The notes below the pieces were generated by a model. It did not search any database. It was not told the DNA's origin and saw only the letters and a list, made by a program, of their open reading frames with translations. Of a stretch of 32,109 nt of DNA, positions 15,664 to 32,109 are shown one piece after another (the stretch's first letter is position 1; the number at the start of each line of letters is the position of its first letter). The position numbers and the translations under genes are program-made. This stretch comes from Lachnospiraceae bacterium. GTDB lineage: Bacteria; Bacillota; Clostridia; Lachnospirales; Lachnospiraceae. The stretch is taken from NCBI GenBank assembly GCA_017467805.1, contig JAFUKJ010000020.1, positions 1-32,109 of the forward strand. Reading direction: 5' to 3'.

Positions 15664-18600
15664 ATGAAAAAGAACGAGAGCAGAATTAGAAAAACACCAA
15701 GAATTGTCGCGAATACATTGGCACTTTCGCTCATTATGGGAACTGTAGTACCTGTGGGAGGACTGGGAAGAGTTGCTTATGCTGAGGAGGCAAATGTTGA
15801 GTCACAGATTCAGGGTGAAGTGAAGCAGACGGCTGAGAATCTCGTTGATGAGGTTAAGGAGAGTATTGTAGAGGAGAAAGAGGAGCTGCTTGCCGAGGTG
15901 AAGGAGGACACCGAAGCAGTAGTAGAGGAGTTGAAGGAGAATCTCGATTCGGACGTGATTGAGGAAGCAAAGGATGCCTTGATGGATGCAGCAAAGCAGG
16001 AGGCTGATGCAGGAATTCAGGCGGTTGTAACCATTGGACAGGGCATCATTTCATCGGAAGCTTTGGGAATTATTAATGAAGTTCAGGCAACTCAGGATGT
16101 GGAAAAGGCTGAGGATGCGATTATTGAGGGAGAGCAGAAGGTAGACGAAGCATTAGATGGCTTTGATACAGATATTGAAGAGAGTAAGAATGCTGCAAAT
16201 GAAGCGGTAAAGGAAGCAGATAAAGCGGCTGATGAGGCTGATAAAGCAGCTGACGCTTTGGAGGAAGCTAAGAAAGCAGAAACCAGTACAGAGGCAAAGG
16301 AAGATGAAGCAGCAGCTTTGGATGCAGCAAATAAGGCACAGGACGCAGCAGAACAGGCAACTGGTGATGCACAGGCATCAAAGGATGCTTATATTGAGGC
16401 GGAGAAGGCATATAATGAAGCTGTAAAGGAAGCAGAGAATGCACAGGCTAAGGCTGATGAAGCCATTAATGCAGCCGAGAAGGATGCGCAGCAGGCTGTT
16501 GATAAGGCTACTGACGCAAAGGAGAAGGCAGAGGAATTAAAGGCAGAGGTAGAGGCAGCAAGAGGCGAGGCAGAGAAGCATTTTACAGAGAAGGAAGCTG
16601 AGCTTTCACAGGCACAGCAGGAATTAGTAGCAGCAAAAGAGAATTTAACAGAGGTAGCTGCTAAGGAAGAAACGGTAAGAGAAGAGTTAAAGACAGCAAC
16701 AGAGGCTGTAGTAGAGACAGGTGTATTCCTTGTGGCAGCAGAAGCATATGAAGCGTTATCAGAGCTGACAGTAGAAGGAATTGAAAATGCGATTACAGTG
16801 ATGGAAGAAGCAAAGGTTGCAGCTGATAAGGCACTTGCTGAGGCAGAAGAGGCATTGAACAATGCAGAAGGAAATGAGGCTGAGGCTCAGGCGGCATATG
16901 ATTCGGCTTTAGCAGCGTATAATGCAGCAAACTCTACATTAGAGCAGGCAAAGAGTGATTTGGATAAAGCAACAACAGAGCAGGAGAAGGCAGAGACTCT
17001 GGCGAATTCAAATTATGGTCAGCTTTTACAGGGAATAGAGAAAGAACTGTTAGATGCGGAGAGTACAGGTGATAAGACCGTAGTTGAAGAAAAGACAAAA
17101 GAGTTAGTGACTGCGGTTATCAAATATGACCAGGATTCTGCGGAGGCTAAGTATGATACTGTAGATTTAGTTGATACAAAGCAGATGATTTACGAGGCAA
17201 CAGATAAGGATGGAAATACAGCATACTATCAGTATGTTAAGAACGCAGATGGAAGCTTCAGCTTCTATGAGTGTAATAAAAATGAGGAAGCTACAACGGT
17301 AGCGAGAAGGGAAACTGTTACAGAACTGCCATCCTTTGAAGGTATGAATGCGTGGGAGTATCAGGTTGTAGCGTTAGAGGGTGGTTCTTACGAAATTATT
17401 TACTTTGATGTAAAGGATTCAGAAAGTGTATTTACAAGCGAGGAAGAGGCTAATAGCAGTATCACAGAGGGAGAGAATAAGGAGATTTATACATTTGAAG
17501 TTCCAACTCAGAGTACAAGCGATGCAATTGCGTATCCTACAGCGCCAGAGAAGCCTGTAGCACCGATAGAGCCAGTGGATTTGGAGACTTTCTTAGAAGA
17601 AAACGATATTGAAAAGCCTGTTGATTGGGAGACCTATAAGGCTGAGAACAGTATAACCGAGCCTGTGGCACCGACTATGACAATGGAGGAACCTGAAACA
17701 GAAAGACCAAGCGCAGAGGAGCCGAAAAAGCCTTCAAGAATGAATCCAAAGTATTATTCAGGATTTAAGTTCAATGAGAGCAAATATAATAGTGATATGG
17801 CTGCGTATAATGAGGCAATGGCTGAATACAATACACTTATGGGAGCTTGGGTTGAGTATGATAAAGCACTAGAAGAGTATAAAAACAGTTTATGGCTTTA
17901 TGAGAACGTTTCATATCCTGCATATAAGGGATTTGTAGATGGATATAAGAAGCTTGTGGATACATACCAGAATAAAGTGGATACTTATGATGAAGAGTAT
18001 GCAGCATACTTAGAGCAAAAGGCTCAGTACGATGCTGATATGGAAATCTACAGCACAGATAAAGCTGAGTATGATGAGGCAAAGGCAAAAGCAGACCAGG
18101 CAAACAACGATAGAACAGCAGTCTTACGCACATGTTTAGAGAATGGAGATACACTTACAATCACTGTAGATGGAGAAGAGAAGACTCTTCTTAGTGATGA
18201 GAGAGGCTTGTATTATACATATAAGGATTCGCTCACTGGTCTTGAATTGAAAAATTATAATGTTAGCGGCTATACAGTTAATGTATCGGGAACAGAGACG
18301 AATTATCGCGTTGTAGAGTATAACAAGATTATTAAGGTTGATTATTCTAAAGTTGATAATACGGCTGATGACAGCTATGAAAATGTTACACAGAAGGTAG
18401 AAACAGCTAAGAATAATTATGTATCTGCTACAGGAAAGGTAGAGACAGCGACATCTGAGAAGAAGGCAGCAGAGGAGAAAGAAAAGGCAGCGGCGACAGA
18501 GCTTGAAGCAGCAGAGGCTGAGCTTGCAAAGGCGCAGGAAGAGTTTGATGAGATTGAGGAAATTTACAATAGCTACTATGGAAATCAGGTAATTGATATT

Positions 18601-20130
18601 CCGTTTATGGGAGAGGTAGAGATTGAGATTCCAAATAGTTCACAGTATGACCAAGATAAGGCGGTATTAGAAATGTCTAAGCTTGCTGCCGAGAAGAATC
18701 TGGAGGAAGCACGCAAATTAGTAGAAGAAAAGCGTGGCGAGCATGAGCAGGCAGTTAACGAGCTTGAAGAAAAAGTGATTCAGTATGGAGAAGCGGTTAA
18801 AGAGTTGGCAGATGCAGCAGTCGAGGTAGGCAAGGCAGAATTAAAGGTTGGCGTTGCAACAGTAGACCTTAAGGCGGCAGAAGTTGCATTAGAGGCTGCT
18901 CAGGCGGCAGAGGCTTATGCAGCAGAGTTATTCGTGGAGGTTGAGGAAGCCAGAGTAAAGGCAGAACAGGCAAGAGCTTTGGTAGAGGCGTTGAAAGCTA
19001 ACTTAGCTGTAAGCAGTGAAGAACTGGCAGTAGCAGAGGCAGCATTGGCAGAGGCAGAAGCTGAGTTAAAGGCAGCCGAAGAGGCAGCAGTGCTTGCACA
19101 GGCAGAGGCAGATGCAGCAAAGGCGGCATATGAAGAGATTTCTGCCATTGTAGCAGATTTAGAAGCTAAGGAAGTGGAGCCAAGCGAGGACGAAGAGTCA
19201 TCAAGCGATGAAGAGCCAAACGAGGACGAAGAGTCATCAAGTGATGAGGAGCCAAGCGAGGACGAAGAATCATCAAGTGATGAGGAGTCAAGCGAGGATG
19301 AAGAGTCATCAAGTGATGAAGAGCCAAGCGAGGACGAAGAGTCATCAAGTGATGAGGAGTCGAGCGAGGACGAAGAGTCATCAAGCGATGAAGAGCCAAG
19401 CGAGGACGAAGAGTCATCAAGTGATGAGGAGTCGAGCGAGGATGAAGAGTCATCAAGTGATGAGGAGTCAAGCGAGGATGAAGAGTCATCAAACGATGAG
19501 GAGTCAAGCAAGGACGAAGAATCATCAAGTGATGAGGAGTCAAGCAAGGACGAAGAATCATCAAGTGATGAAGAGTCCAAGAAAGATGACGCTGACGATA
19601 AGAAGAATGACAACGCTAATAATAGCAGCAACAATAACAACAAGGGTGACTATGTCGTAATTGAAGATGAAGAAACACCGCTTGCTGATCAAATTATTGT
19701 AGAGGACGGAATTGTTCATATAGCATTACCAGCAGAAAAAGCAATTCTTAGAGTAGAGACCTTACAGAAGTATTATGGTATGAGAATGCATGTATATTCA
19801 TACCTTACAAATCTAGTAGGTTACACAATGAATGTAGATGACGTAAAGACTGATATTGATTTTAGTGCAACCATGGATGTTGTTGAGAACTTTTTAGAGG
19901 GCTTCCATACAGTATGCATCAAACAGATGAAATTTGCAAAGCTGGGAATGACAATTGGAGTTCATGCAAATATAGGAACTGAGTATGTAGGCAAGACCGC
20001 TTATATCTTTACATGGAATGCTTTAACAGGTGAGTATGAGCAAAAAGCGATTACAACTGTTAATGAAATTGGAAATGTAGGTTTCTTTACAGAAGAATTA
20101 ACAAATGTCATGATTATGATTGAAAAATAA
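15664..20130 (+). CDS. Giant secreted coiled-coil protein with acidic Ser/Asp/Glu repeat
   Basis: A 1488-residue protein with an extended signal peptide (to about residue 40, AYA-E). Residues 45-460 and 905-1170 are Ala/Glu/Lys-rich heptads typical of long coiled coils. Residues about 460-625 and 825-900 are short beta-rich islands. Residues 630-700 are Pro-rich with a near-duplicated PVD-x-ET-(F/Y) block. Residues 708-810 are Tyr/Ala heptads resembling streptococcal antigen I/II-type stalks. Residues 1172-1303 are eleven 12-residue acidic repeats, followed by an Asn/Lys linker and a C-terminal domain from about 1329 (ending TVNEIGNVGFFTEELTNVMI). No LPXTG, SLH or C-terminal membrane helix is visible, so anchoring is unclear. 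It is likely a surface or matrix adhesin, probably under the divergent BTAD regulator. GAGAGGG precedes the ATG. Confidence 0.82.
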   Translation: MKKNESRIRKTPRIVANTLALSLIMGTVVPVGGLGRVAYAEEANVESQIQGEVKQTAENLVDEVKESIVEEKEELLAEVKEDTEAVVEELKENLDSDVIEEAKDALMDAAKQEADAGIQAVVTIGQGIISSEALGIINEVQATQDVEKAEDAIIEGEQKVDEALDGFDTDIEESKNAANEAVKEADKAADEADKAADALEEAKKAETSTEAKEDEAAALDAANKAQDAAEQATGDAQASKDAYIEAEKAYNEAVKEAENAQAKADEAINAAEKDAQQAVDKATDAKEKAEELKAEVEAARGEAEKHFTEKEAELSQAQQELVAAKENLTEVAAKEETVREELKTATEAVVETGVFLVAAEAYEALSELTVEGIENAITVMEEAKVAADKALAEAEEALNNAEGNEAEAQAAYDSALAAYNAANSTLEQAKSDLDKATTEQEKAETLANSNYGQLLQGIEKELLDAESTGDKTVVEEKTKELVTAVIKYDQDSAEAKYDTVDLVDTKQMIYEATDKDGNTAYYQYVKNADGSFSFYECNKNEEATTVARRETVTELPSFEGMNAWEYQVVALEGGSYEIIYFDVKDSESVFTSEEEANSSITEGENKEIYTFEVPTQSTSDAIAYPTAPEKPVAPIEPVDLETFLEENDIEKPVDWETYKAENSITEPVAPTMTMEEPETERPSAEEPKKPSRMNPKYYSGFKFNESKYNSDMAAYNEAMAEYNTLMGAWVEYDKALEEYKNSLWLYENVSYPAYKGFVDGYKKLVDTYQNKVDTYDEEYAAYLEQKAQYDADMEIYSTDKAEYDEAKAKADQANNDRTAVLRTCLENGDTLTITVDGEEKTLLSDERGLYYTYKDSLTGLELKNYNVSGYTVNVSGTETNYRVVEYNKIIKVDYSKVDNTADDSYENVTQKVETAKNNYVSATGKVETATSEKKAAEEKEKAAATELEAAEAELAKAQEEFDEIEEIYNSYYGNQVIDIPFMGEVEIEIPNSSQYDQDKAVLEMSKLAAEKNLEEARKLVEEKRGEHEQAVNELEEKVIQYGEAVKELADAAVEVGKAELKVGVATVDLKAAEVALEAAQAAEAYAAELFVEVEEARVKAEQARALVEALKANLAVSSEELAVAEAALAEAEAELKAAEEAAVLAQAEADAAKAAYEEISAIVADLEAKEVEPSEDEESSSDEEPNEDEESSSDEEPSEDEESSSDEESSEDEESSSDEEPSEDEESSSDEESSEDEESSSDEEPSEDEESSSDEESSEDEESSSDEESSEDEESSNDEESSKDEESSSDEESSKDEESSSDEESKKDDADDKKNDNANNSSNNNNKGDYVVIEDEETPLADQIIVEDGIVHIALPAEKAILRVETLQKYYGMRMHVYSYLTNLVGYTMNVDDVKTDIDFSATMDVVENFLEGFHTVCIKQMKFAKLGMTIGVHANIGTEYVGKTAYIFTWNALTGEYEQKAITTVNEIGNVGFFTEELTNVMIMIEK
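19177..19572 (+). repeat. Eleven 36-bp in-frame tandem repeats
   Basis: Eleven units of exactly 36 bp encode E-(P/S)-x-(E/K)-DEESS-(S/N)-DE. Units 3 to 8 alternate Pro and Ser at position 2, so the recent duplication unit appears to be 72 bp. Units 5-6 and 7-8 are almost identical at the DNA level. Units 9-11 have diverged toward Lys and Asn. The repeat count is expected to vary between strains and to be collapsed easily in short-read assemblies. Confidence 0.95.
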
Positions 20131-23542: not shown

Positions 23543-23977
23543 ATGGTAAATAAAGATACAATCTGTTTATTAAAGGAATGTGATGCAGGCTCGAAGATGG
23601 CGGTGTCATCTATTGATGATGTGGTAGAGAAGGTAAGCGATTCGGCAATGAAGCAGCTTTTGCAGGAGAGTAAGAAGCATCATGAGAAGCTTGGGAATGA
23701 GATTCATGTGCAGTTAAATGAGTATGGAGCGAAGGAGAAGGAACCAACACCCATGGCAAAGGGGATGTCGTGGATGAAAACTACCATGAAGATGAACATG
23801 GATAACAGTGATGCCACAGTGGCTGACTTGATTACAGATGGATGTGACATGGGGATTAAGTCTCTTCACAAATATATGAACGAGTATAGTTCGGCGGATA
23901 GTACGTCAAAGGAACTGTGTAATAAGCTTATTGATATTGAGGAAGAGCTTAAGACGAAGTTAGAGAAATATTTGTAG
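23543..23977 (+). CDS. Small four-helix protein, DUF2383 / ferritin-like type
   Basis: A 144-residue, almost wholly helical protein without signal peptide: LLKECDAGSKMAVSSIDDVV, MKQLLQESKKHHEKLGNEIH, DLITDGCDMGIKSLHKYMNE, LCNKLIDIEEELKTKLEKYL. The pattern and length fit the DUF2383 / PA2169-like four-helix family, related to ferritin-like bundles. The usual metal-binding ExxH pairs are not clearly present. A hairpin (GCTATCTA 23513-23520, TAGATAGC 23534-23541) places the GTGAGG ribosome site in its loop just before the ATG. Function unknown; a strong terminator follows immediately. Confidence 0.72.
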   Translation: MVNKDTICLLKECDAGSKMAVSSIDDVVEKVSDSAMKQLLQESKKHHEKLGNEIHVQLNEYGAKEKEPTPMAKGMSWMKTTMKMNMDNSDATVADLITDGCDMGIKSLHKYMNEYSSADSTSKELCNKLIDIEEELKTKLEKYL

Positions 23978-23982
23978 GATTG

Positions 23983-24014
23983 AAAGAAACGTCATTACAT
24001 GGCGTTTCTTTTTT
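23983..24014 (+). terminator. Rho-independent terminator after the DUF2383-like gene
   Basis: AAAGAAACG (23983-23991) pairs perfectly with CGTTTCTTT (24003-24011), followed by TTT. It closes the CotH-WYL-DUF2383 unit. Confidence 0.85.
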
Positions 24015-24076
24015 GGGGCTGAATTCAGCATGGCGACATGAACCATGACAATCTCTATTTGGAAGATAAACAAAAA

Positions 24077-24255
24077 GTATACAGTAATAATAAACTTTAC
24101 TGTGGTACACCCGATTAGGCTATTTTTCTTGGATTTTTGCAAAAAATGGTATACAGCAAACTGAAAACTTGTTGTGGTGCACCCATTCTAGCTATTTTTC
24201 ATACATTTCAAGCCAAAATGGTATACAGTAAACGAAAAGTTCGCTCTAGTATACT
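24077..24255. repeat. 72-bp degenerate tandem repeat array, intergenic
   Basis: GTATACAG recurs at 24077, 24149 and 24221, exactly 72 bp apart. Copies 1 and 2 are full length and share the blocks TGTGGT-x-CACCC, CTATTTTTC and a terminal A-rich ATG; overall identity is roughly two thirds. Copy 3 matches for about 30 bases before diverging, and another GTATAC follows at 24249. The array sits in the 672-bp gap between 23977 and 24650, in which no convincing gene is seen. Function unknown. Confidence 0.8.
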
Positions 24256-24282
24256 CATAGGGAAATTGAGCTTCAGTTACAC

Positions 24283-24446
24283 CTGCCTACAAGGTACAGA
24301 AATACAAAAAACATCGTGAGACCTCGAATATAAGGAATTCATATCATTCCTACGGTGTTTTGAGGTACTGGAGTATTTTTCTTACTCTAGGGTATAGGTT
24401 TTTCTGTTTTTCGATATCCTACAAAAGATTATTTTAGTATGTACCT
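24283..24446 (+). repeat. 164-bp structured dispersed repeat, left copy
   Basis: This segment matches the reverse complement of 31946-32109 at 149 of 164 positions without gaps. Predicted stems are: outer ACCTCGAA (24321-24328) with TTTTGAGGT (from 24359); inner AGGAAT (24333-24338) with ATTCCT (24346-24351); and TAGGGTAT (24388-24395) with ATATCCTA (24414-24421). A further 24-bp match to the right copy resumes at 24523-24546 after an 82-bp interruption. It could be a noncoding RNA or an intergenic mobile repeat; neither strand can be assigned with confidence. Confidence 0.85.
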
Positions 24447-24579
24447 AGATGCTACATAAGAAGGGGGGAAAATCAGCAAAATTATGGAGTATTCGAGGTA
24501 CCAGAAGAAAAAAATTGCTCTTGTACCCCAATATGAGTAAATCTACAAAACCTAGATTCGAAAGTTTATTTCAGAATAA

Positions 24580-24608
24580 TTGACGTACAGAATGCAGTGG
24601 GATAGAAT
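24580..24608 (+). promoter_or_regulatory. Promoter of the eleven-gene small-enzyme operon
   Basis: TTGACG (24580-24585) and TAGAAT (24603-24608) are exactly 17 bp apart, close to the sigma-A consensus. Transcription would begin near 24615, which rules out the in-frame ATG at 24611 as the Nudix start and supports ATG 24650. The promoter lies 34 bp after the end of the left dispersed repeat. Confidence 0.8.
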
Positions 24609-24649
24609 AAATGTACGAGAATTATGTAAACAAACTAGGGGGATTATCT

Positions 24650-25144
24650 ATGGAATACGATTGCGGATTTACAAGAGATGATAAGTGGTTTCGATACAGG
24701 GCGGGAGCAATTATTATTGAAGAGGGCTGTGTATTATTTGTTGGAAATGCGAAGGAAAGCTATTACTACTCAGTTGGTGGGGGAATTCATATGGGAGAGA
24801 CTGCCGAGGATGCAGTAAAGCGTGAGGTATTCGAGGAAACAGGTGTGCATTATGAGGTGGACAGGCTGGCATTTATACATGAGAATTTCTTTGAGTCGGA
24901 CGGAAGTCTTGAGGGACTAAAGTGTCATGAGGTAGCGTTTTATTTCCTGATGAAGCCAAGAGGTACGAAGGAGCTTAACAGCAATAGCTATACATATGGA
25001 GTGAAGGAAGAGATGCATTGGATTCCAGTAGAGGAGCTTGGCAATTACAAGGCATTTCCAACTTTTTTTAGGGATAAGCTTAAGAATATAGGAGAGGGAA
25101 TTGAACACATTGTAACACATGAGGACAATTCAAAGAGTAACTAA
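24650..25144 (+). CDS. Nudix hydrolase
   Basis: The 164-residue product starts at ATG 24650, 6 nt after AGGGGGA (24637-24643) and downstream of the predicted transcription start; the upstream in-frame ATG 24611 is rejected. Residues 44-66 form a complete Nudix box, GGIHMGETAEDAVKREVFEE followed by TGV, with all metal-binding glutamates (G-x5-E-x7-RE-x2-EE-x-G). Nudix enzymes cleave nucleoside diphosphates linked to another group; the substrate cannot be told from sequence. It is the first gene of a same-strand set of small metabolic or repair-like enzymes and ends about 50 bp before the phosphatase gene. Confidence 0.93.
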   Translation: MEYDCGFTRDDKWFRYRAGAIIIEEGCVLFVGNAKESYYYSVGGGIHMGETAEDAVKREVFEETGVHYEVDRLAFIHENFFESDGSLEGLKCHEVAFYFLMKPRGTKELNSNSYTYGVKEEMHWIPVEELGNYKAFPTFFRDKLKNIGEGIEHIVTHEDNSKSN

Positions 25145-25195
25145 TATTCATGTAGAGAAAGAGCGGCAACCAAAAGTGGAAAGGAAAATAGCAAA

Positions 25196-25768
25196 ATGAC
25201 AAAAGTATATTTTGTGCGTCATGCACAGCCGAACTATGAAAATCACGATGATATGACAAGAGAGCTTTCACTAAAAGGATTAGAGGACAGGAAGCTGGTA
25301 ACTGAGTTTTTGAAGGACAAGGCAATTGATGTGGTATTATCAAGTCCTTTTAAGCGCTCGATAGATACGGTCAAGGATTTTGCAGATACATATGGACATG
25401 AGATTACAACAATAGATGATTTTAGAGAGCGTAAGATAGATAGCTGCTGGATTGAGGATTTCTATGGATTTTCCAAGAGACAGTGGGAGGATTTTGATTA
25501 TAAGCTGCAGGATGGCGAGACATTGCGTGAAGTGCAGACAAGAAATATTGCAGCTTTGAAGCAGGTAGTGCAGGAATATAAGGATAAGAATATTGTGGTT
25601 GGCTCTCATGGAACGGCACTTAGTACGATTGTTAATTACTATCAGCCAAGCTTTGATTTTATGGAGTTTGAAAGAATCAGAACCTTGATGCCTTGGATTG
25701 TTTGCTTTAGCTTTGATGGCGAGCAGTGTGTTGGGATTGAAGAATTTAATTTGTTTGAGGAAGAATAG
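25196..25768 (+). CDS. Histidine phosphatase (phosphoglycerate mutase-like)
   Basis: The 190-residue protein has the RHG-type motif VRHAQ with catalytic His9, Arg8 and Arg54 (SSPFKRS), the acid region FRERK (Glu78) and the second catalytic His138 in VVGSHGTAL. These are the complete active-site elements of the branch 1 histidine phosphatase superfamily. The size fits small cytosolic phosphatases such as CobC/GpmB-like enzymes, but no cobalamin genes are nearby, so the substrate is unknown. AAGGAAA precedes ATG 25196, and the next gene follows after 6 bp. Confidence 0.92.
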   Translation: MTKVYFVRHAQPNYENHDDMTRELSLKGLEDRKLVTEFLKDKAIDVVLSSPFKRSIDTVKDFADTYGHEITTIDDFRERKIDSCWIEDFYGFSKRQWEDFDYKLQDGETLREVQTRNIAALKQVVQEYKDKNIVVGSHGTALSTIVNYYQPSFDFMEFERIRTLMPWIVCFSFDGEQCVGIEEFNLFEEE

Positions 25769-25774
25769 ATAAGT

Positions 25775-26215
25775 ATGATAAGAGAAGCACGCAAAGAAGA
25801 TTTGCAAGAGATATTAGATTTGTATTTGTTCCTTCATGAGACATCAGTTCCGCAGGAGTCTGAGCATTTATCACAGACTTGGAAGAGAATCATAGAGGAC
25901 AGCAATCATCACCTTATTGTATGCGAAGTGGATGGAAGGATTGTAGCGTCCTGTGTCTGTGTCATTATACCGAATCTGACTAGAAATATTAGACCATATG
26001 CTTTCATAGAAAATGTGGTAACACATGAAGCATATCGGGGGAAGGGATATGCGACAGCCTGCCTTAATTATGCTAAGCAGATAGCGGAGGAGCAGAATTG
26101 TTACAAGATGATGTTGCTCACGGGTTCTAAGGAGACAAAGACACTGGATTTCTATAAAAATGCAGGCTATAACAGTGCAGATAAAACGGCGTTTATACAG
26201 TGGTTGGGTGTATGA
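25775..26215 (+). CDS. GNAT-family N-acetyltransferase
   Basis: The 146-residue protein starts MIREARKEDLQEILDLY, a typical GNAT N-terminus. The acetyl-CoA-binding motif A appears as FIENVVTHEAYRGKGYATAC (R-x-x-G-x-G/A). Motif B is LDFYKNAGYNSADKTAF. It transfers an acetyl group from acetyl-CoA to an unknown amine substrate. It is 6 bp after the phosphatase gene with the ribosome site inside that gene's end, so they are cotranscribed. Confidence 0.9.
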   Translation: MIREARKEDLQEILDLYLFLHETSVPQESEHLSQTWKRIIEDSNHHLIVCEVDGRIVASCVCVIIPNLTRNIRPYAFIENVVTHEAYRGKGYATACLNYAKQIAEEQNCYKMMLLTGSKETKTLDFYKNAGYNSADKTAFIQWLGV

Positions 26216-26233
26216 TAATAAGGAGGAAACACA

Positions 26234-26650
26234 ATGGAAGCTAAGATATTTTCAAGATGCGGTATGCGTTGCGACTTATGTCTGCTGTATCGCCCAAATG
26301 TAGAGAAGGAAGACAGACGCGAAGAAATTTGCAATGTATATAGAAAAATGTTTCCAGGATATAATCCTGATGCCAGTACGATTATTTGCGATGGCTGTTC
26401 TAGTGAAGCAGAGAATGCTGTATTGTTTGACGCAAATTGCAAAGCGCGTAAGTGCGTAATTGAAAAAGGTCATACACATTGTGGTTATTGTGATAGTTAT
26501 CCCTGCGATATATTCCCAGCCGAACCATCACATGAGGAGATAGTACATAAGATAGAGGTTGAGAAGCTGTGGACATGGGAGGATGAAAAGCTAATGGAGG
26601 CGTATGCCTGCAAGAAGAATATGGATGAGTTTAGGAGAAACAAGACATGA
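26234..26650 (+). CDS. DUF3795 cysteine-rich protein
   Basis: A 138-residue protein with cysteine clusters: CGMRCDLC near the N-terminus, CDGC, then isolated Cys residues and CGYCDSYPC. This spacing is characteristic of DUF3795, whose members probably bind metal (zinc or iron-sulfur) through these cysteines; the function is unknown. AAGGAGG precedes ATG 26234. Its stop overlaps the next start (ATGA, 26647-26650), indicating translational coupling to the HD hydrolase gene. Confidence 0.85.
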   Translation: MEAKIFSRCGMRCDLCLLYRPNVEKEDRREEICNVYRKMFPGYNPDASTIICDGCSSEAENAVLFDANCKARKCVIEKGHTHCGYCDSYPCDIFPAEPSHEEIVHKIEVEKLWTWEDEKLMEAYACKKNMDEFRRNKT

Positions 26651-27324
26651 ACAAAGAAACCTATTCATTAATAGAAAAATATATGCTTTCCTGCATGGAG
26701 GACAGCGCGCATGACAAAGAGCATGTATACAGAGTGTTGTACAATGCGTTAGCAATTGCGAAGACAGAAAATGATGTAGACTATGACGTATTGATTGGAG
26801 CCTGCCTCTTGCATGATGTTGGACGTAAGGAACAGTTCGAGAATCCCAAGCTATGTCATGCAATGGTTGGTGGAGAGAAAGCTGAGAAGTTTTTGAGAGA
26901 GAATGGATTTGCTGAGAATTATGTGGAGAAAGTGAAGCACTGTATTCAGACACATAGATTCAGACAGAACAATCAGCCGCAAAGTATCGAGGCAAAGATT
27001 TTATTTGATGCGGATAAGCTGGATGTGGTAGGTGCAATGGGAATTGCCAGAACATTAGTGTACAAAGGTGCAGTAGCTGAGCCGTTGTATTCTGTTTTGC
27101 CAGATGGCAGGGTATCAAATGGAGAAGGTGATACGAGTCCATCCTTTTTCCAAGAGTATAAGTATAAGCTGGAGCATTTGTATTCCAAGTTCTATACACA
27201 GAAAGGAACGCAGATGGCAATGGAAAGACAGCAGGCAGCGGTTGATTTTTATAATAGCTTGTATCATGAGGTCGAGGTGTCTTATGAAAATGGAAAGGAC
27301 GAGCTTGGGAAGATAATAGAGTGA
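26647..27324 (+). CDS. HD-domain phosphohydrolase
   Basis: The 225-residue protein carries HD-superfamily metal ligands: His26, His56-Asp57 (LLHDVGR), His71, His98 and His103, with FDADKLD at about 120-126. This is the YpgQ/YedJ-like arrangement that hydrolyses phosphate bonds in small nucleotides. The substrate is not predictable. The start overlaps the DUF3795 stop by 4 bp. The next gene's ribosome site begins 6 bp after its stop. Confidence 0.9.
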   Translation: MNKETYSLIEKYMLSCMEDSAHDKEHVYRVLYNALAIAKTENDVDYDVLIGACLLHDVGRKEQFENPKLCHAMVGGEKAEKFLRENGFAENYVEKVKHCIQTHRFRQNNQPQSIEAKILFDADKLDVVGAMGIARTLVYKGAVAEPLYSVLPDGRVSNGEGDTSPSFFQEYKYKLEHLYSKFYTQKGTQMAMERQQAAVDFYNSLYHEVEVSYENGKDELGKIIE

Positions 27325-27344
27325 TATTGTGGAGGGGAGAAAAT

Positions 27345-28352
27345 ATGGCACAATCAAAGGAATGGAATTGGAACAACGCAGATAAAGAGAAATGGTTAAA
27401 GCCGTCGGAGGATAGCATTTACTTTGCAAAGAAATGGAGAGAGGAAGGTGCGCGCTCTATCTTGGACTTAGGGTGCGGATTAGGCAGACATGCTTTATAT
27501 TTTGCCGAGAAGGGCTTCAAAGTAACCGCCGTTGATTTGTCTAAGGAAGCGGTGGAAAGTGCAAAGAAGTTGAGAAGGGAGAAGCAGGTCGATTTTCTTT
27601 GTAAAAGAGCAGATATGATGCAGCTTCCTTTCGCCAATGACGCCTTTGACAGAGTATTTTCCTATCATGTAATCTCACATCAGGATACCGAAGGCGTGCA
27701 GAGTGTAGTGGATGAAATCACCAGAGTGTTAAAGCCTGGTGGAAAAGTCTTTCTGACATTATGTTCAAAGGAGCATTATGCCTTTTCTGATGACAGATTC
27801 CCGCATATAGATGCGAATACGGTATTAAAGACAGAAGGCGCAGAGGTGGAGGTACCGCATTTCTTTGCAGATAAAGAGGCTTTGAAACAGCTCTTTCATG
27901 ATTACAGCTTTGTACAGGTACGTCACATTACAGACTGTGAAATGGGAGAAGCTGATAGCAGGGAGAGAAGTCATTATTTTATCGAGGCTGCGGTTCGCAA
28001 AGAGCCAACCAAACTGGACTATTCTGATGTTATAGGGAAAATGGTAGATTGCACCATAGACCGTCCGCTTGGAAGCTACCATCCAAGAAATAAAGACTTA
28101 TATTATTCAATTAATTATGGATATGTAAATGGCGTTTTTGCAGGAGATGGCGCAGAGCAGGATGTGTACATATTAGGTGTGGAGGAGCCGCTTCAAACCT
28201 TTACAGGTAAGGTAATTGCAGTGTATCACAGGCACAATGATAATGAGGACAAGTGGATTGTTGCACCTGAAGGTAAGGATTTTTCGGATGAAGAGATATT
28301 GCAGAAGATAGAGTTTCAGGAGAAATTCTTTGATGGGGTATTGGTAAGATAA
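27345..28352 (+). CDS. Class I SAM methyltransferase fused to a pyrophosphatase-like domain
   Basis: Start ATG 27345 has GGAGGGG 7 nt upstream; the in-frame GTG at 27321 overlaps the previous stop and is unlikely. Residues 35-215 are a Rossmann methyltransferase with SAM motif I ILDLGCGLGRHALYF (39-53), the acidic residue of motif II in VTAVDLS and motif VLKPGGKVFLTL. Residues about 230-335 resemble family I inorganic pyrophosphatases: TIDRPLGSYHP, YYSINYGYVNGVFAGDG, EQDVYILGV, GKVIAVYHR, DNEDKWIVAPEG. The usual DGDPxD metal motif reads DGAEQD (268-273), so one Asp is missing and activity may be altered. From memory, stand-alone versions of this second domain exist in clostridia. Substrates of both halves are unknown. 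Confidence 0.85.
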   Translation: MAQSKEWNWNNADKEKWLKPSEDSIYFAKKWREEGARSILDLGCGLGRHALYFAEKGFKVTAVDLSKEAVESAKKLRREKQVDFLCKRADMMQLPFANDAFDRVFSYHVISHQDTEGVQSVVDEITRVLKPGGKVFLTLCSKEHYAFSDDRFPHIDANTVLKTEGAEVEVPHFFADKEALKQLFHDYSFVQVRHITDCEMGEADSRERSHYFIEAAVRKEPTKLDYSDVIGKMVDCTIDRPLGSYHPRNKDLYYSINYGYVNGVFAGDGAEQDVYILGVEEPLQTFTGKVIAVYHRHNDNEDKWIVAPEGKDFSDEEILQKIEFQEKFFDGVLVR

Positions 28353-28356
28353 TAGA

Positions 28357-29139
28357 ATGGGACTGTTTGATATATTTAAGAAGGAAATGAAAGAATTTCA
28401 GTATTGTGGTAGCGGAGAACATCTAAAGAACGATGATGAAATGAAAGCCATGAATGCAGAAGAAGCAGATGCTGCATTTAAAAAGTATAAAAAAGAAATT
28501 TTAGATGTTTATATGAAAGAGCAAGGCTTTGATAAATATAAGACCTCAAGCTATGTTCGCCTCAACAAGATAGGTTTAATAGAATACATCAATCTACAAA
28601 AGGAGCAGCATGGCTCGAGAACCTTTACAGTTAATATCGCTTTATTTCCGTTATATGCACCTCATTTATTTATTACGATTGGATTTGGAGATAGGATAGG
28701 TCATTTTGTTGATGATAATGATTTTTGGTGGGATTACAAAGACATGGATACTGCTCGCAAGAGCTTTGGAAATGTTGTGTGTGCACTTAATGAATATGTG
28801 CTGCCCTGGTTTGAAAAGCATAATGATGAAACTCTATATGAAGAAGAATTGCGCAATGAAAAGTATAGATTAGGATATGATTCTATTATTTGGATAACAC
28901 ATATTTTTATTAAGAATAATGATATCGCAGGAGCAAGGAATTATATAGAGAACATTAAGGATATGAACTTTTATAAGGAAGCGACTGGCGGTAGAAAGGA
29001 ATACATTGATAATAAAGTAAAGGAAATGCAGGAGATATTAGCAGGATTGGATGATGTGAAGCAATATATTGCTGACGTAAAAAAGAAAAATGTGACTGAG
29101 TTTAAGCTGCCTGCAAAGATGATGGAGAATAAAAAATGA
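28357..29139 (+). CDS. DUF4304-type protein
   Basis: The 260-residue protein has at about 40-120 the DUF4304 pattern: a helix, then MKEQGFDKYKTSSYVRLNKI and LIEYINLQKEQHGSRTFTVN. The C-terminal part is helical and Lys/Glu-rich. There is no signal peptide or membrane segment. The ribosome site is weak and the ATG is 4 bp after the previous stop, so expression probably depends on coupling. The first 150 bases are richer in A and T than the neighbouring genes. DUF4304 has no known function and is often seen in variable genomic regions. Confidence 0.75.
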   Translation: MGLFDIFKKEMKEFQYCGSGEHLKNDDEMKAMNAEEADAAFKKYKKEILDVYMKEQGFDKYKTSSYVRLNKIGLIEYINLQKEQHGSRTFTVNIALFPLYAPHLFITIGFGDRIGHFVDDNDFWWDYKDMDTARKSFGNVVCALNEYVLPWFEKHNDETLYEEELRNEKYRLGYDSIIWITHIFIKNNDIAGARNYIENIKDMNFYKEATGGRKEYIDNKVKEMQEILAGLDDVKQYIADVKKKNVTEFKLPAKMMENKK

Positions 29140-29810
29140 TACGAGCAGTTATTTTTGATATGTTTGAGACACTAATTACCCACTATCAAAGTCCCTTGTA
29201 CTTTGGGATGCAGATGGCAGAAGATGCAGGGATTTCAGAGGAGCGATTTCAGGCGCTTTGGCGTCCAACAGAAGCTGACCGTTCTATAGGGAAGATGACA
29301 TTAGAAGAAGTGCTGGAAATGATCCTAAAAGAGAATCATTGTTACTCTGAGGAAATCTTGAAGAAGATAGTAGATAAGCGTATAGCAGCAAAGGAAGAGT
29401 GCTTTCGACATTTACATCCTGAGATTATTCCGATGCTTACGAAGCTGAGAGAAGAAGGAATTCTGGTTGGGTTAATCAGTAATTGTTTTTCAGAGGAAGC
29501 AGATGTAATTCGAGAAAGTGTACTATTTCCATACTTTGATGCACTATACTTGTCTTATGAACAGGGAGTTCAGAAGCCTGACAAAGAGATTTTTATAAGG
29601 TGTATGAATGAGTTGGGCGTGAAGTCGGAGGAATGTTTATATGTGGGAGATGGAGGCAGTCATGAGCTGGAGGCAGCAAGAGGATTAGGGATGCAGGCAG
29701 TACAGGCTTGCTGGTATTTGCAGGAAGGAACAACACAGCCAACAGGGCGTAAGCGGGAGTTCTTACAGATGGATAAACCATTGGATGTGTTAAAGTATTT
29801 AGGAAATTAA
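29136..29810 (+). CDS. HAD-superfamily hydrolase
   Basis: A 224-residue protein overlapping the previous gene by ATGA. HAD motif I is FDMFETL, with nucleophile Asp8. The usual second Asp is Phe10, as in haloacid dehalogenases. Motif II is LISNC, motif III has the lysine in QKPDKEIF, and motif IV is YVGDGGSHELEAARG. A helical cap (C1 type) lies between motifs I and II. It is probably a phosphatase or dehalogenase-like enzyme acting on a small metabolite; lack of the general acid/base Asp makes ordinary phosphatase chemistry uncertain. Confidence 0.88.
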   Translation: MIRAVIFDMFETLITHYQSPLYFGMQMAEDAGISEERFQALWRPTEADRSIGKMTLEEVLEMILKENHCYSEEILKKIVDKRIAAKEECFRHLHPEIIPMLTKLREEGILVGLISNCFSEEADVIRESVLFPYFDALYLSYEQGVQKPDKEIFIRCMNELGVKSEECLYVGDGGSHELEAARGLGMQAVQACWYLQEGTTQPTGRKREFLQMDKPLDVLKYLGN

Positions 29811-29821
29811 GGACGAGAAGC

Positions 29822-30400
29822 ATGAGAAAAAGACTATTATCACTATGCATTCTTATAGGAATTTCACTTATGGGATGTTCGGCTAAGGCGACTACAAGTA
29901 AGGTTGAAACACCCGAATTAACAGTAAATGTGGAGATTCCACAATACAAAGGAATGACATATGAACAATTTCGAGAACATACGGGAACAGATTTAGAGCA
30001 GTATTTTTCGTTTTATTACTTTGCACCTATACCGAATACAGAGCTTGATTTGGTTTATAGGGCGAATAAATATGATGAGGAGCTTATAAAAAATGTCCTG
30101 CAGGAGGATGATATCAGCTATCGTGTAGAAGGTAAGCTTGGAGCAATGTTTGATGGATTCACAACAGAAATGTCGTTAGAAGATTTTTTAGAAGCACTTT
30201 CTTGGAATCAGCAAATACCTGAGTGTGAAATGAAGGAAGGCGCAGGTACAGCATACTATGTGGGAAACCTCTATGCGGAGATACACTTTGACAGTGATGG
30301 AGATGCTGTGAAGGATATGCTATTGCAGATTTGTTTTGATTATTCGGATTGTGTAGGACCAGATTCAAGAGCATGGTTGTCGTGGAAATCTGAGGAATAG
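29822..30400 (+). CDS. Small lipoprotein of unknown function
   Basis: The 192-residue product has a lipoprotein signal peptide with lipobox LMGC (Cys19). The mature part contains YKGMTYEQFREHTGTDLEQY, a helix often found in small-ligand-binding or SmpA-like lipoproteins, and an acidic C-terminal half (AEIHFDSDGDAVKDMLL). I do not recognise a family. It lies 11 bp after the HAD gene and 11 bp before the epimerase gene, so it belongs to the same transcript although its neighbours are cytosolic. Confidence 0.7.
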   Translation: MRKRLLSLCILIGISLMGCSAKATTSKVETPELTVNVEIPQYKGMTYEQFREHTGTDLEQYFSFYYFAPIPNTELDLVYRANKYDEELIKNVLQEDDISYRVEGKLGAMFDGFTTEMSLEDFLEALSWNQQIPECEMKEGAGTAYYVGNLYAEIHFDSDGDAVKDMLLQICFDYSDCVGPDSRAWLSWKSEE

Positions 30401-30411
30401 GAGCTACCATT

Positions 30412-31320
30412 ATGAAGAAAGTATTAGTGACAGGTGGAACGGTATTTGTAAGCCGATATGTGGCAGAGTATTATGTGAAGGCAGGCTATGAGGTTTTTGT
30501 ATTGAATAGAAATAGCAGGCAGCAGTGCGAGGGAGTAACGCTGATTGAGGCAGACAGGAATGCGCTGGGAGATAAGCTAAAGGGGTATCATTTTGATGTG
30601 GTCTTTGATGTGACCGCATATAATGCCAAGGATGTAAACTGTCTGCTTGATGCATTGGACAGCTTTGATGACTATATTTTAATTAGTTCCAGTGCAGTAT
30701 ATCCCGAGTATTGTAAGCAGCCATTTACAGAGGAAACAGAGGTAGGGGCAAATAAGTTTTGGAAAAAGTACGGTACGGATAAAATAGAAGCAGAAGCAGC
30801 ACTTATGGAGCGCGTACCGAATGCCTATATTCTTCGTCCGCCATATTTGTACGGTTCTTTGAATAATGTCTATAGAGAGGCCTTTGTTTTTGATTGTGCC
30901 ATGCAGGAACGAAAGTTTTATCTGCCAAAGGATGGAGCGATGAAGCTACAGTTCTTTCATGTAAAGGATTTGTGTCGATTTATGGACATAATCCTTGAGA
31001 AAAAGCCAAGTCAGCACATCTTCAACGTAGGTAATAAGGAGAGTATTTCTATAAAAGATTGGGTAACCCTGTGTTATAGAATTGCAGACAAAGAGGCGGA
31101 ATTTGTAAATGTTTATGAAGAAATAGAACAGCGCAAGTATTTCAGCTTTTATGATTATGAATATGCATTGGATGTACAAAAACAGTGTGAGTTAATGCCT
31201 GTGACAGAGGACTTAGAGGTAGGATTGCGAGAAGCATATAACTGGTATTTAAATAATCAGGACAAGGTGATAAAGAGACCTTATATAGAATTTATCGATA
31301 AGGAATTGAAGGAGATATAA
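30412..31320 (+). CDS. NAD-dependent epimerase/dehydratase (extended SDR)
   Basis: The 302-residue protein opens with the Rossmann motif KKVLVTGGTVFVSRYVAEYY, a TGGTxFV(S/G)R variant seen in extended SDR nucleotide-sugar enzymes. Catalytic residues are visible as ISSSAVY (Ser 92-94) and Y120-x3-K124. The segment YILRPPYLYG fits the substrate-binding region. It likely acts on a nucleotide sugar or similar; the lack of glycosyltransferase neighbours prevents assigning a substrate. The next gene begins 1 bp after its stop. Confidence 0.88.
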   Translation: MKKVLVTGGTVFVSRYVAEYYVKAGYEVFVLNRNSRQQCEGVTLIEADRNALGDKLKGYHFDVVFDVTAYNAKDVNCLLDALDSFDDYILISSSAVYPEYCKQPFTEETEVGANKFWKKYGTDKIEAEAALMERVPNAYILRPPYLYGSLNNVYREAFVFDCAMQERKFYLPKDGAMKLQFFHVKDLCRFMDIILEKKPSQHIFNVGNKESISIKDWVTLCYRIADKEAEFVNVYEEIEQRKYFSFYDYEYALDVQKQCELMPVTEDLEVGLREAYNWYLNNQDKVIKRPYIEFIDKELKEI

Positions 31321-31321
31321 T

Positions 31322-31843
31322 ATGTATCTAATCTCAATTTATTTTGACGAGGCGACCAGCGGACGAATTCAACAGTATATCAATCAGGTGGCGAAGGCAT
31401 CGGGAAATACTTATATGATAGACGAGAAGGTGCCAGTGCATATTACGTTATCTGCAATTGACACCCGAAATATAGAAAAAGTAGAACAGGTTTTGGAACA
31501 GGTGATACAAACCTTGCAGCGAGGAACTTTGCAATGGGTAAGTATTGGAGCATTTTTACCACATGTATTATTTTTACAACCGTTACAGAATCACTATCTG
31601 TTTGAATTGATGAATCAAATATATGATGCTGTAAGTGCAGTAGAGGATGTGGCGGTTCGAAAGTGCTATCAACCTTTTTGCTGGATTCCGCATACCACCA
31701 TAGCTAAGAAGTTGTTACGAGAGGAAATGCAGGCAGGCTTTGAAGCATTGCAGAGCAGCTTTGGTATATTTGAAGGAACAGTAACACGGATCGGTCTTGC
31801 AAAGACAAATCCGTATAAGGATATAAGAAGCTGGGAACTATAG
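31322..31843 (+). CDS. 2H phosphoesterase (2'-5' RNA ligase / LigT-like)
   Basis: The 173-residue protein carries the two H-x-T motifs that define the 2H superfamily: VHITLS (His40, Thr42) and PHTTIA (His124, Thr126), at the usual spacing. Such enzymes open cyclic phosphates or act as RNA 2'-5' ligases/phosphodiesterases. Together with the Nudix, HD and methyltransferase genes it gives the operon a nucleotide or RNA-end-processing flavour, but a shared pathway is not demonstrated. It is the last gene of the operon; no clear terminator follows before the right dispersed repeat. Confidence 0.9.
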   Translation: MYLISIYFDEATSGRIQQYINQVAKASGNTYMIDEKVPVHITLSAIDTRNIEKVEQVLEQVIQTLQRGTLQWVSIGAFLPHVLFLQPLQNHYLFELMNQIYDAVSAVEDVAVRKCYQPFCWIPHTTIAKKLLREEMQAGFEALQSSFGIFEGTVTRIGLAKTNPYKDIRSWEL

Positions 31844-31927
31844 CTTATTTAGAAAAAGAATTGATAGGAAAATTGCGGTTTAGTTGAGTCATGGCGGGGA
31901 TGTGAATGAAAAGGGAATTATACTTTA

Positions 31928-32109
31928 GCAGATTTACTCATATTGAGGTACAGACCCAAATAATCTTTCGTAGGATATCGAAAAGCAGAAAAAACTATAT
32001 CCTATAGCAAGAAAAATACTCCAGTACCTCAAAATACCGTAGAAATGATATGAATTTCTTATATTCGAGGTCTCACGATGTTTTTTGTGTCTCTGTACCT
32101 TGTAGGTAG
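31928..32109 (-). repeat. 164-bp structured dispersed repeat, right copy (inverted)
   Basis: Positions 31946-32109 are the reverse complement of the left copy (24283-24446) with 15 substitutions and no gaps. The 24 bases 31928-31951 also match 24523-24546 with 2 substitutions, so this copy lacks the 82-bp interruption. Read on the minus strand, the stem AGAAAT/ATTTCT replaces AGGAAT/ATTCCT, and TAGGATAT/ATATCCTA replaces TAGGGTAT/ATATCCTA. TTGAGGTAC can also pair with GTACCTCAA about 90 bases on. The copy reaches the window edge, so its full length is unknown. Confidence 0.85.

Follow-up and report, generated by a model that had tools for sequence, protein, structure and literature searches.

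The window analysed here, a stretch of 32,109 nt that is the entire contig C8 of a Lachnospiraceae bacterium assembly, carries a 164-nt inverted pair at 24283-24446 and 31946-32109. We find that this pair is not a stand-alone RNA: it forms the two-hairpin core of an interspersed family of elements that are modular and non-coding. Elements of the family are scattered between genes in two related gut bacteria, the source of the window (G000, the source genome) and a second genome of the genus (G010); loci extracted for analysis carry L-numbers. With a probability of roughly 70%, the pair represents two core copies of a non-autonomous, modular, interspersed DNA element that resembles pneumococcal BOX elements and bacterial miniature inverted-repeat transposable elements (MITEs). 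The first-pass annotation had read base-pair covariation in the pair as a sign of a selected folded form, as in a noncoding RNA, a riboswitch-like leader or a hairpin-dependent mobile repeat. The last of these came close, in that the repeat is multi-copy, intergenic and palindromic and lies within elements with terminal inverted repeats.

Searched against the source genome, the left copy with its flanks gives 17 matches including itself, far above chance: seven at 90-100% over at least 164 nt (itself among them), three short pieces and seven relatives at 69-74%. These relatives, termed type II, have 18 matches on 15 contigs of the source genome and nine matches in G010. Many copies lie at contig ends, as expected for repeats in a draft assembly. 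The inverted pair itself aligns without gaps and is 91% complementary, and a recount returns the 15 differences first reported. A second inverted pair (24522-24550 and 31924-31952; 29 nt, 90%) is the far side of the same repeat, and because the contig end cuts the right copy, position 32109 is an edge of the assembly and not of the repeat.

Nine complete sister elements were examined, 299-807 bp in length and with a longest ATG-initiated open reading frame of at most 81 aa. Their plan runs from a terminal inverted repeat through an end module to palindromes and/or the core, often a second end module, and the opposite terminal inverted repeat. The end module is either a GC-rich hairpin module or an outward-pointing copy of the Rfam RNA TwoAYGGAY, and the interior consists of tandem imperfect palindromes of ~36 nt and/or the two-hairpin core. 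In seven complete elements the ends match over 12 to 28 nt, two of them with one mismatch, and across the nine the ends match better within than between elements (p 0.0004, with one element compared out of register, which worked against the result). Predicted folds of the nine contain 11-20 end-to-end pairs, with folding z-scores of -4.6 to -20.7 on both strands relative to 20 shuffles each. Matched ends and the lack of a long reading frame fit a non-autonomous element served by an enzyme encoded elsewhere. The elements on contigs C23 (583 bp, ends matching at 27 of 28 nt) and C61 (807 bp, 22 of 23 nt; both counts from the printed alignment) of the source genome are complete; besides the two-hairpin core and a GC-rich end module, their interiors hold ~36-nt imperfect palindromes whose foot is GGTGTACC/GGTACACC. 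The sister elements are thus short, non-coding and multi-copy with terminal inverted repeats, as MITEs are; the window copies are incomplete.

Within the window, the stretch 24021-24550 matches the C23 element at 83%, and this left copy has lost both terminal inverted repeats. The right copy comes after the stop codon of a gene and has had one palindrome module deleted between two GAGGTACAG direct repeats. The features of the two copies and their immediate surroundings are as follows.

23983..24014, plus strand: hairpin and T-run, by eye the intrinsic terminator of the upstream gene; the left element starts ~10 nt past it.
24023..24548, minus strand: left element copy, a remnant retaining the hairpin array, the two-hairpin core and one further hairpin module.
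24076..24111, minus strand: array palindrome 1, AGTATAC / GTACACC foot (by reading; letters verified).
24148..24183, minus strand: array palindrome 2, GGTATAC / GGTGCACC foot (by reading; letters verified).
24220..24255, minus strand: array palindrome 3 (palindrome analysis; letters verified).
24286..24447, minus strand: core of the left copy, two GTAC-footed hairpins and an AGGAAT..ATTCCT spacer hairpin (alignment of copies).
24495..24529, minus strand: hairpin module GAGGTACC...GTACCCC, absent from the right copy (sequence comparison).
24580..24608, plus strand: promoter-like site of the NUDIX gene, downstream of the repeat (10/12 matches).
31871..31898, plus strand: terminal inverted repeat of the right copy, AATTGCGGTTTAGTTGAGTCATGGCGGG (sequence comparison; letters verified).
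31871..32109, plus strand: right element copy, cut by the contig end, one hairpin module deleted.
31945..32106, plus strand: core of the right copy (alignment of copies).

The terminator at 23983..24014 is not listed by the terminator scan because its loop is 11 nt.

Palindromes with the GGTGTACC/GGTACACC foot number 22 in the source genome by one pattern and 0 for the reversed pattern, and in type II arrays the palindromes recur with a period of 61-62 bp. The GC-rich end module has 20 matches in the source genome, of which, by reading, ~15 are the module, the rest being ends alone or a fragment of the same copy. What follows the end module varies: in some G010 elements it is TGGACC-footed palindromes (L142, L143), and elsewhere in the source genome GGGTAY-footed ones (L126, L132). 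At L189:1900-2180 in G010, a palindrome array with a AAAGACCAA/TTGGTCTTT foot and a period of ~50 nt comes after a second end sequence, AATTGGGGTTTAGTTGAG. A T-run follows several array palindromes, though the terminator scan lists none of those in L064 or in the left copy of the window as a terminator.

The family has a narrow distribution in the collections searched. Among the 39 genomes searched in the genus, two hold type II. Nine match when the query is the C23 element; outside the source genome one match is to the element (G010:C85) and the remaining matches are to the flanking gene, and in these genus searches not every first-look candidate was scored. A species-level contig collection holds one record with an exact match to the internal pattern, which is that same contig C85 of G010. 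The first-pass annotation had proposed searching Lachnospiraceae genomes for further copies; the core was found in one of 299 family genomes, the source genome itself, with two others matching the GC-rich end module weakly, and the end module alone as query is found in five of the 299, counts that are lower bounds because two candidates were scored per genome. Phage or plasmid cargo was considered and rejected: two elements had no match in phage and plasmid collections, and exact element patterns occurred in 0 stretches each in viral contigs.

We consider it improbable that the pair is a functional non-coding RNA or leader, in which a folded 164-bp transcript would be selected and would regulate neighbouring genes. 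The covariation that suggested this was correctly observed in part. G24335 and the facing C24349 are indeed A and T in the right copy; G24392, which faces T24417, is also A there, and this change is not compensatory, since in a seven-copy alignment it is confined to the left copy and is one-sided. Among the seven close copies RNAalifold keeps 48 pairs, three of which change on both sides, and 98.5% of cells pair, a value reached by two of 500 shuffles. Across five measures the observed values are reached by 2, 86, 2, 474 and 2 of 500 shuffles, the 86 applying to the count of core pairs changed on both sides. In the 21-copy alignment five pairs are kept and none changes on both sides. Under a null in which changes are replayed along the tree, no core pair stands out, the best having an E of 2.5 (20 copies, one of the 21 having been dropped as too short; the test has little power), so that selection for a folded RNA is not demonstrated.

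In 21 array palindromes the foot pairs exchange among G-C, A-U and G-U, and the covariation score is reached by 0 of 500 shuffles, relatedness not being controlled; two of nine pairs change on both sides, which 273 of 500 shuffles reach. Predicted energies favour no strand in two of three palindrome classes (GTAC, nine against 12, n=21, p 0.24; TGGACC, five against four with one tie, n=10, p 0.86), and in the GGGTAY class eight of 10 lean to one strand (p 0.03); the TGGACC and GGGTAY classes count one palindrome in both orientations. By hand count, the 21-palindrome alignment has six G-U against five A-C cells. The presence of an Rfam RNA in some sister elements argues for an RNA function, and the position of the left copy argues against one: the promoter-like site of the NUDIX gene comes after it, so that it is not between promoter and start codon, where a cis-regulatory leader would be, and a riboswitch-like leader is not supported for this copy. 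A promoter scan gives two sites versus 2.9 in shuffles, and the orthologue of the NUDIX gene in G010 has, by reading, the same promoter-like hexamers (TTGACG, 17 nt, TAGAAT); as the number of sites is not above that in shuffles, the assignment rests more on this recurrence. Paired changes could have an alternative explanation, since self-templated correction of quasi-palindromes produces them without selection. The palindromes are maintained, and selection at the RNA level is not shown.

Scanned with Rfam, the window gives no match at gathering threshold, and TwoAYGGAY (RF01731) has no match at E up to 5 in 23950-24650, around the left copy. The best sub-threshold match to the repeat, at E 0.16, is to an unrelated small RNA family, and an RNA class for the window repeat was rejected. 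The earlier remark that the repeat is not recognised as any known RNA class holds for the window and not for the wider family, where TwoAYGGAY occurs. Ends of the form AATTCGGGTTTGTYGAGC, allowing up to one mismatch, are found 22 times in G010 and six times in the source genome, with none in 37 other genomes of the genus and no hit for the reversed pattern. All 28 loci with an end of the AATTCGGGTTTG kind were scanned with Rfam, four via other loci at the same place (L069, L125, L129, L065), and 16 of them hold TwoAYGGAY at or above gathering, in 20 copies; the matches in sister elements score 57.3-107.2 bits versus a gathering score of 43. Of the 12 loci that lack it, eight break off at a contig end no more than 155 nt from the terminal repeat; the other four do not. 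Eighteen of the 20 copies face outward, their 3' end toward a terminal repeat 57-59 or 75-76 nt away (one has a repeat on its 5' side too), and the other two have no terminal repeat within 200 nt by the pattern used. Copies lie within matched-end elements at L069:698-1216, L138:141-657, L175, L177, L188 and L191, with inverted TwoAYGGAY pairs in L177, L188 and L191.

Both core homologues in G010 (L069, and L138, which is the same place as L195) share one stretch with TwoAYGGAY and a terminal repeat. In the source genome, the core copy in L065 (C53) has this end and no TwoAYGGAY, and TwoAYGGAY is likewise absent from the other core copies scanned. Rfam scans find TwoAYGGAY neither in the window nor in L054, L055, L056, L057 and L058, and it is absent from the 10 type II copies of the source genome that were scanned (L062-L068, L135, L136, L144; all of the 12 but those on C16 and C68). 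What links the window to TwoAYGGAY is thus the core, ends and modules shared across elements; the window copies themselves do not carry this RNA. In 11 loci (six of seven in one scan, five of 20 in another) the GC-rich end module aligns with a second Rfam family, Clostridiales-1 (RF01699), covering the model largely or entirely at 25.8-34.1 bits; the best score, 34.1, is below the gathering score of 48, and L054, which has the module version of the window's own element type, has no RF01699 match in either scan.

TwoAYGGAY, a candidate RNA first listed in 2010, has been described, in the parts of the sources drawn on here, as a probable RNA with probably no cis-regulatory role (PMC2864571) and as a candidate CsrA-binding small RNA (PMC4333381). 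The literature found, in a coverage that mostly excludes subscription journals, does not tie TwoAYGGAY or Clostridiales-1 to terminal inverted repeats or a mobile context, and the portions consulted of PMC11661157, PMC11701678, PMC7657543 and a MITE review (PMC10969869) make no mention of a mobile context for TwoAYGGAY. We propose, tentatively and at rather less than even odds, that TwoAYGGAY, and perhaps Clostridiales-1, may be fixed, outward-facing end modules of terminator-inserting modular mobile elements with exchangeable palindrome arrays, and not free-standing regulatory RNAs, their RNA structure serving mobility or tolerance beside terminators.

Ends of the AATTCGGGTTTG kind are found just past intrinsic terminators much more often than controls are. 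A terminator-like hairpin with a T-run occurs within 70 nt upstream of 15 of 32 AATTCGGGTTTG ends compared with 12 of 640 windows in the same loci, and at 12 of these 15 ends the stem and the element are 8-13 nt apart. A stricter control, drawn from one window and one 8-kb locus, places 52 of 1844 intergenic positions 5-25 nt past such a stem. The 32 ends comprise the 28 from the end-pattern search, a second end in L191 and three opposite ends picked by eye, and the detector missed at least three terminators that are visible by eye (L184, L194, L175b). Group IIC introns likewise occur next to terminators; no group II model matched in any Rfam scan.

Comparison of nine places between the source genome and G010 shows six occupied in both species. 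In front of the NUDIX gene, a TGGACC element is present in G010 (orthologous right flank only). At the C61 place G010 has a TwoAYGGAY element right after the terminator of the same gene; at the C30 place an end-like sequence, identified by eye, starts straight after the stop codon in both species; and at the C23 place G010 has a single palindrome. The C17 place carries a TwoAYGGAY element in both, the right flank having been inspected in G010 and the left flank lying on another contig. The G010:C83 place corresponds in the source genome (G000:C18) to a 57-bp remnant that is little but two ends (right flank only), and the orthologous site of the G010:C27 element, also in G000:C18, is empty with both flanks contiguous. 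For the C58 and C20 places one flank each was found, with no element in the stretch shown. A tenth element, G010:C107, has flanks with no counterpart in the source genome beyond short matches. The empty site, the remnant and the shared places with different interiors indicate mobile-like turnover. It is very unlikely, and the least probable of the alternatives, that the elements are passive mosaics between genes, in which old repeats have spread through duplication and gene conversion alone and not through transposition. The missing ends of the left copy, the module deleted between short direct repeats and the six places occupied in both species would suit such a history; the recurrence of one kind of end at 22 places in G010 with none for the reversed pattern, the position of ends beside terminators and the empty orthologous site argue against it.

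Several observations weigh against a mobile, BOX/MITE-like element. Outside the ends, target-site duplications are absent in seven of seven complete elements; the sole direct repeat, AATT, is part of the inverted end, as an element with AGTT/AACT shows. This absence speaks against a plain DDE-type MITE, and we therefore use MITE-like and not MITE. No known transposase has these ends, although no transposase family search was made. The window copies themselves are not shown to be mobile, the left lacking both ends and the right one, and in the source genome none of the core copies scanned occurs in one element with TwoAYGGAY. The terminator result comes mainly from G010 (14 of 24 ends), the source genome showing it weakly (one of eight), and it covers AATTCGGGTTTG ends and not the AATTGCGG ends of the window's own type; among the latter, by eye, the C61 element follows a terminator, and the C23 element and the right copy of the window do not. 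At C61 synteny is broken, as the right flank in G010 adjoins another gene, with no element seen there. Finally, the junction at the empty site is not that of a clean insertion, as the adjacent terminator is absent too.

The absence of target-site duplications, the palindromes throughout the elements and the strong predicted folding of both strands would also be consistent with transposition by a single-strand system that recognises hairpins, such as repetitive extragenic palindromes with their associated tyrosine transposases (REP/RAYT) or IS200/IS605-like elements, the palindromes being the recognised sites. We regard this as improbable, a shade more so than the RNA reading. The palindrome feet differ between elements (GGTGTACC, TGGACC, GGGTAY), so that no single hairpin is recognised, and IS200/IS605 elements are not known to end in long matched terminal inverted repeats.

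BOX and BrickBuilt are the nearest architectures to the BOX/MITE-like element proposed here. BOX, in the part of the source used (PMC3049150), has two end modules around variable tandem units, terminal inverted repeats that pair in the fold and many copies, and in S. suis alternative end modules (boxA/C or boxE/F) surround common boxB units. The elements described here are set beside Streptococcus BOX by this composite architecture and not by sequence. They differ in that BOX makes target-site duplications (PMC3049150) and none were seen here, and in their palindrome-foot exchange and adjacency to terminators, features that the same part of the source does not mention for BOX. BrickBuilt, a MITE of Porphyromonas gingivalis with an internal minisatellite, occurs in few species with ~20 intergenic copies, has a tandem array between a leader and a tail that bear short inverted ends, shows irregular or absent target duplications and has some sites in common with a sister species (consulted part of PMC4596501). 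These are the points of likeness. BrickBuilt units, as described there, are 23 nt long without spacers, compared with ~36-nt palindromes with spacers here, and BrickBuilt ends match IS5-family elements (PMC4596501), whereas no matching insertion sequence is known for the elements here, none having been searched for.

An enzyme encoded elsewhere would move the copies in trans by recognising the matched ends, with insertion or survival favoured just past terminators. The arrays may gain and lose units when short direct repeats recombine, of which the deletion in the right copy would be an example. Pairing within the palindromes would be kept at least as much by DNA-level processes, namely end recognition or self-templated correction of quasi-palindromes, as by RNA function.

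Between the two copies in the window, at 24611-31843, lies a run of about eleven same-strand open reading frames with one copy of the repeat at each end, the two being inverted relative to each other; an inversion between these copies is possible. Pfam matches in this run are to NUDIX, GNAT, HD, methyltransferase and 2'-5' RNA ligase. The protein encoded at 27321-28352 is a methyltransferase by Pfam over residues 48-144, and its C-terminal part, which has no Pfam match, presumably resembles a family I inorganic pyrophosphatase, judging by a motif. Outside this run, 15664-20130 encodes a protein of 1488 aa that is Ala/Glu-rich over long stretches and contains a tract of SSDEEPSEDEE repeats, for which there is no Pfam match at E up to 0.001. 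Elsewhere in the source genome, a tRNA gene lies directly past the C61 element (L054:1809-1880) and the RNase P RNA gene directly past the C53 element (L065:493-858).

Once further family members are gathered, the riboswitch-like covariation of a single inverted pair fades. What emerges is an orphan Rfam RNA that keeps a fixed distance from the ends of repeat elements lying next to terminators. Should this hold generally, it would account for TwoAYGGAY having no associated genes, and the known kinds of bacterial miniature elements would gain a rule of placement, namely just past a terminator. Places that are the same in the two species and hold different palindromes offer a natural series for the turnover of palindrome arrays.

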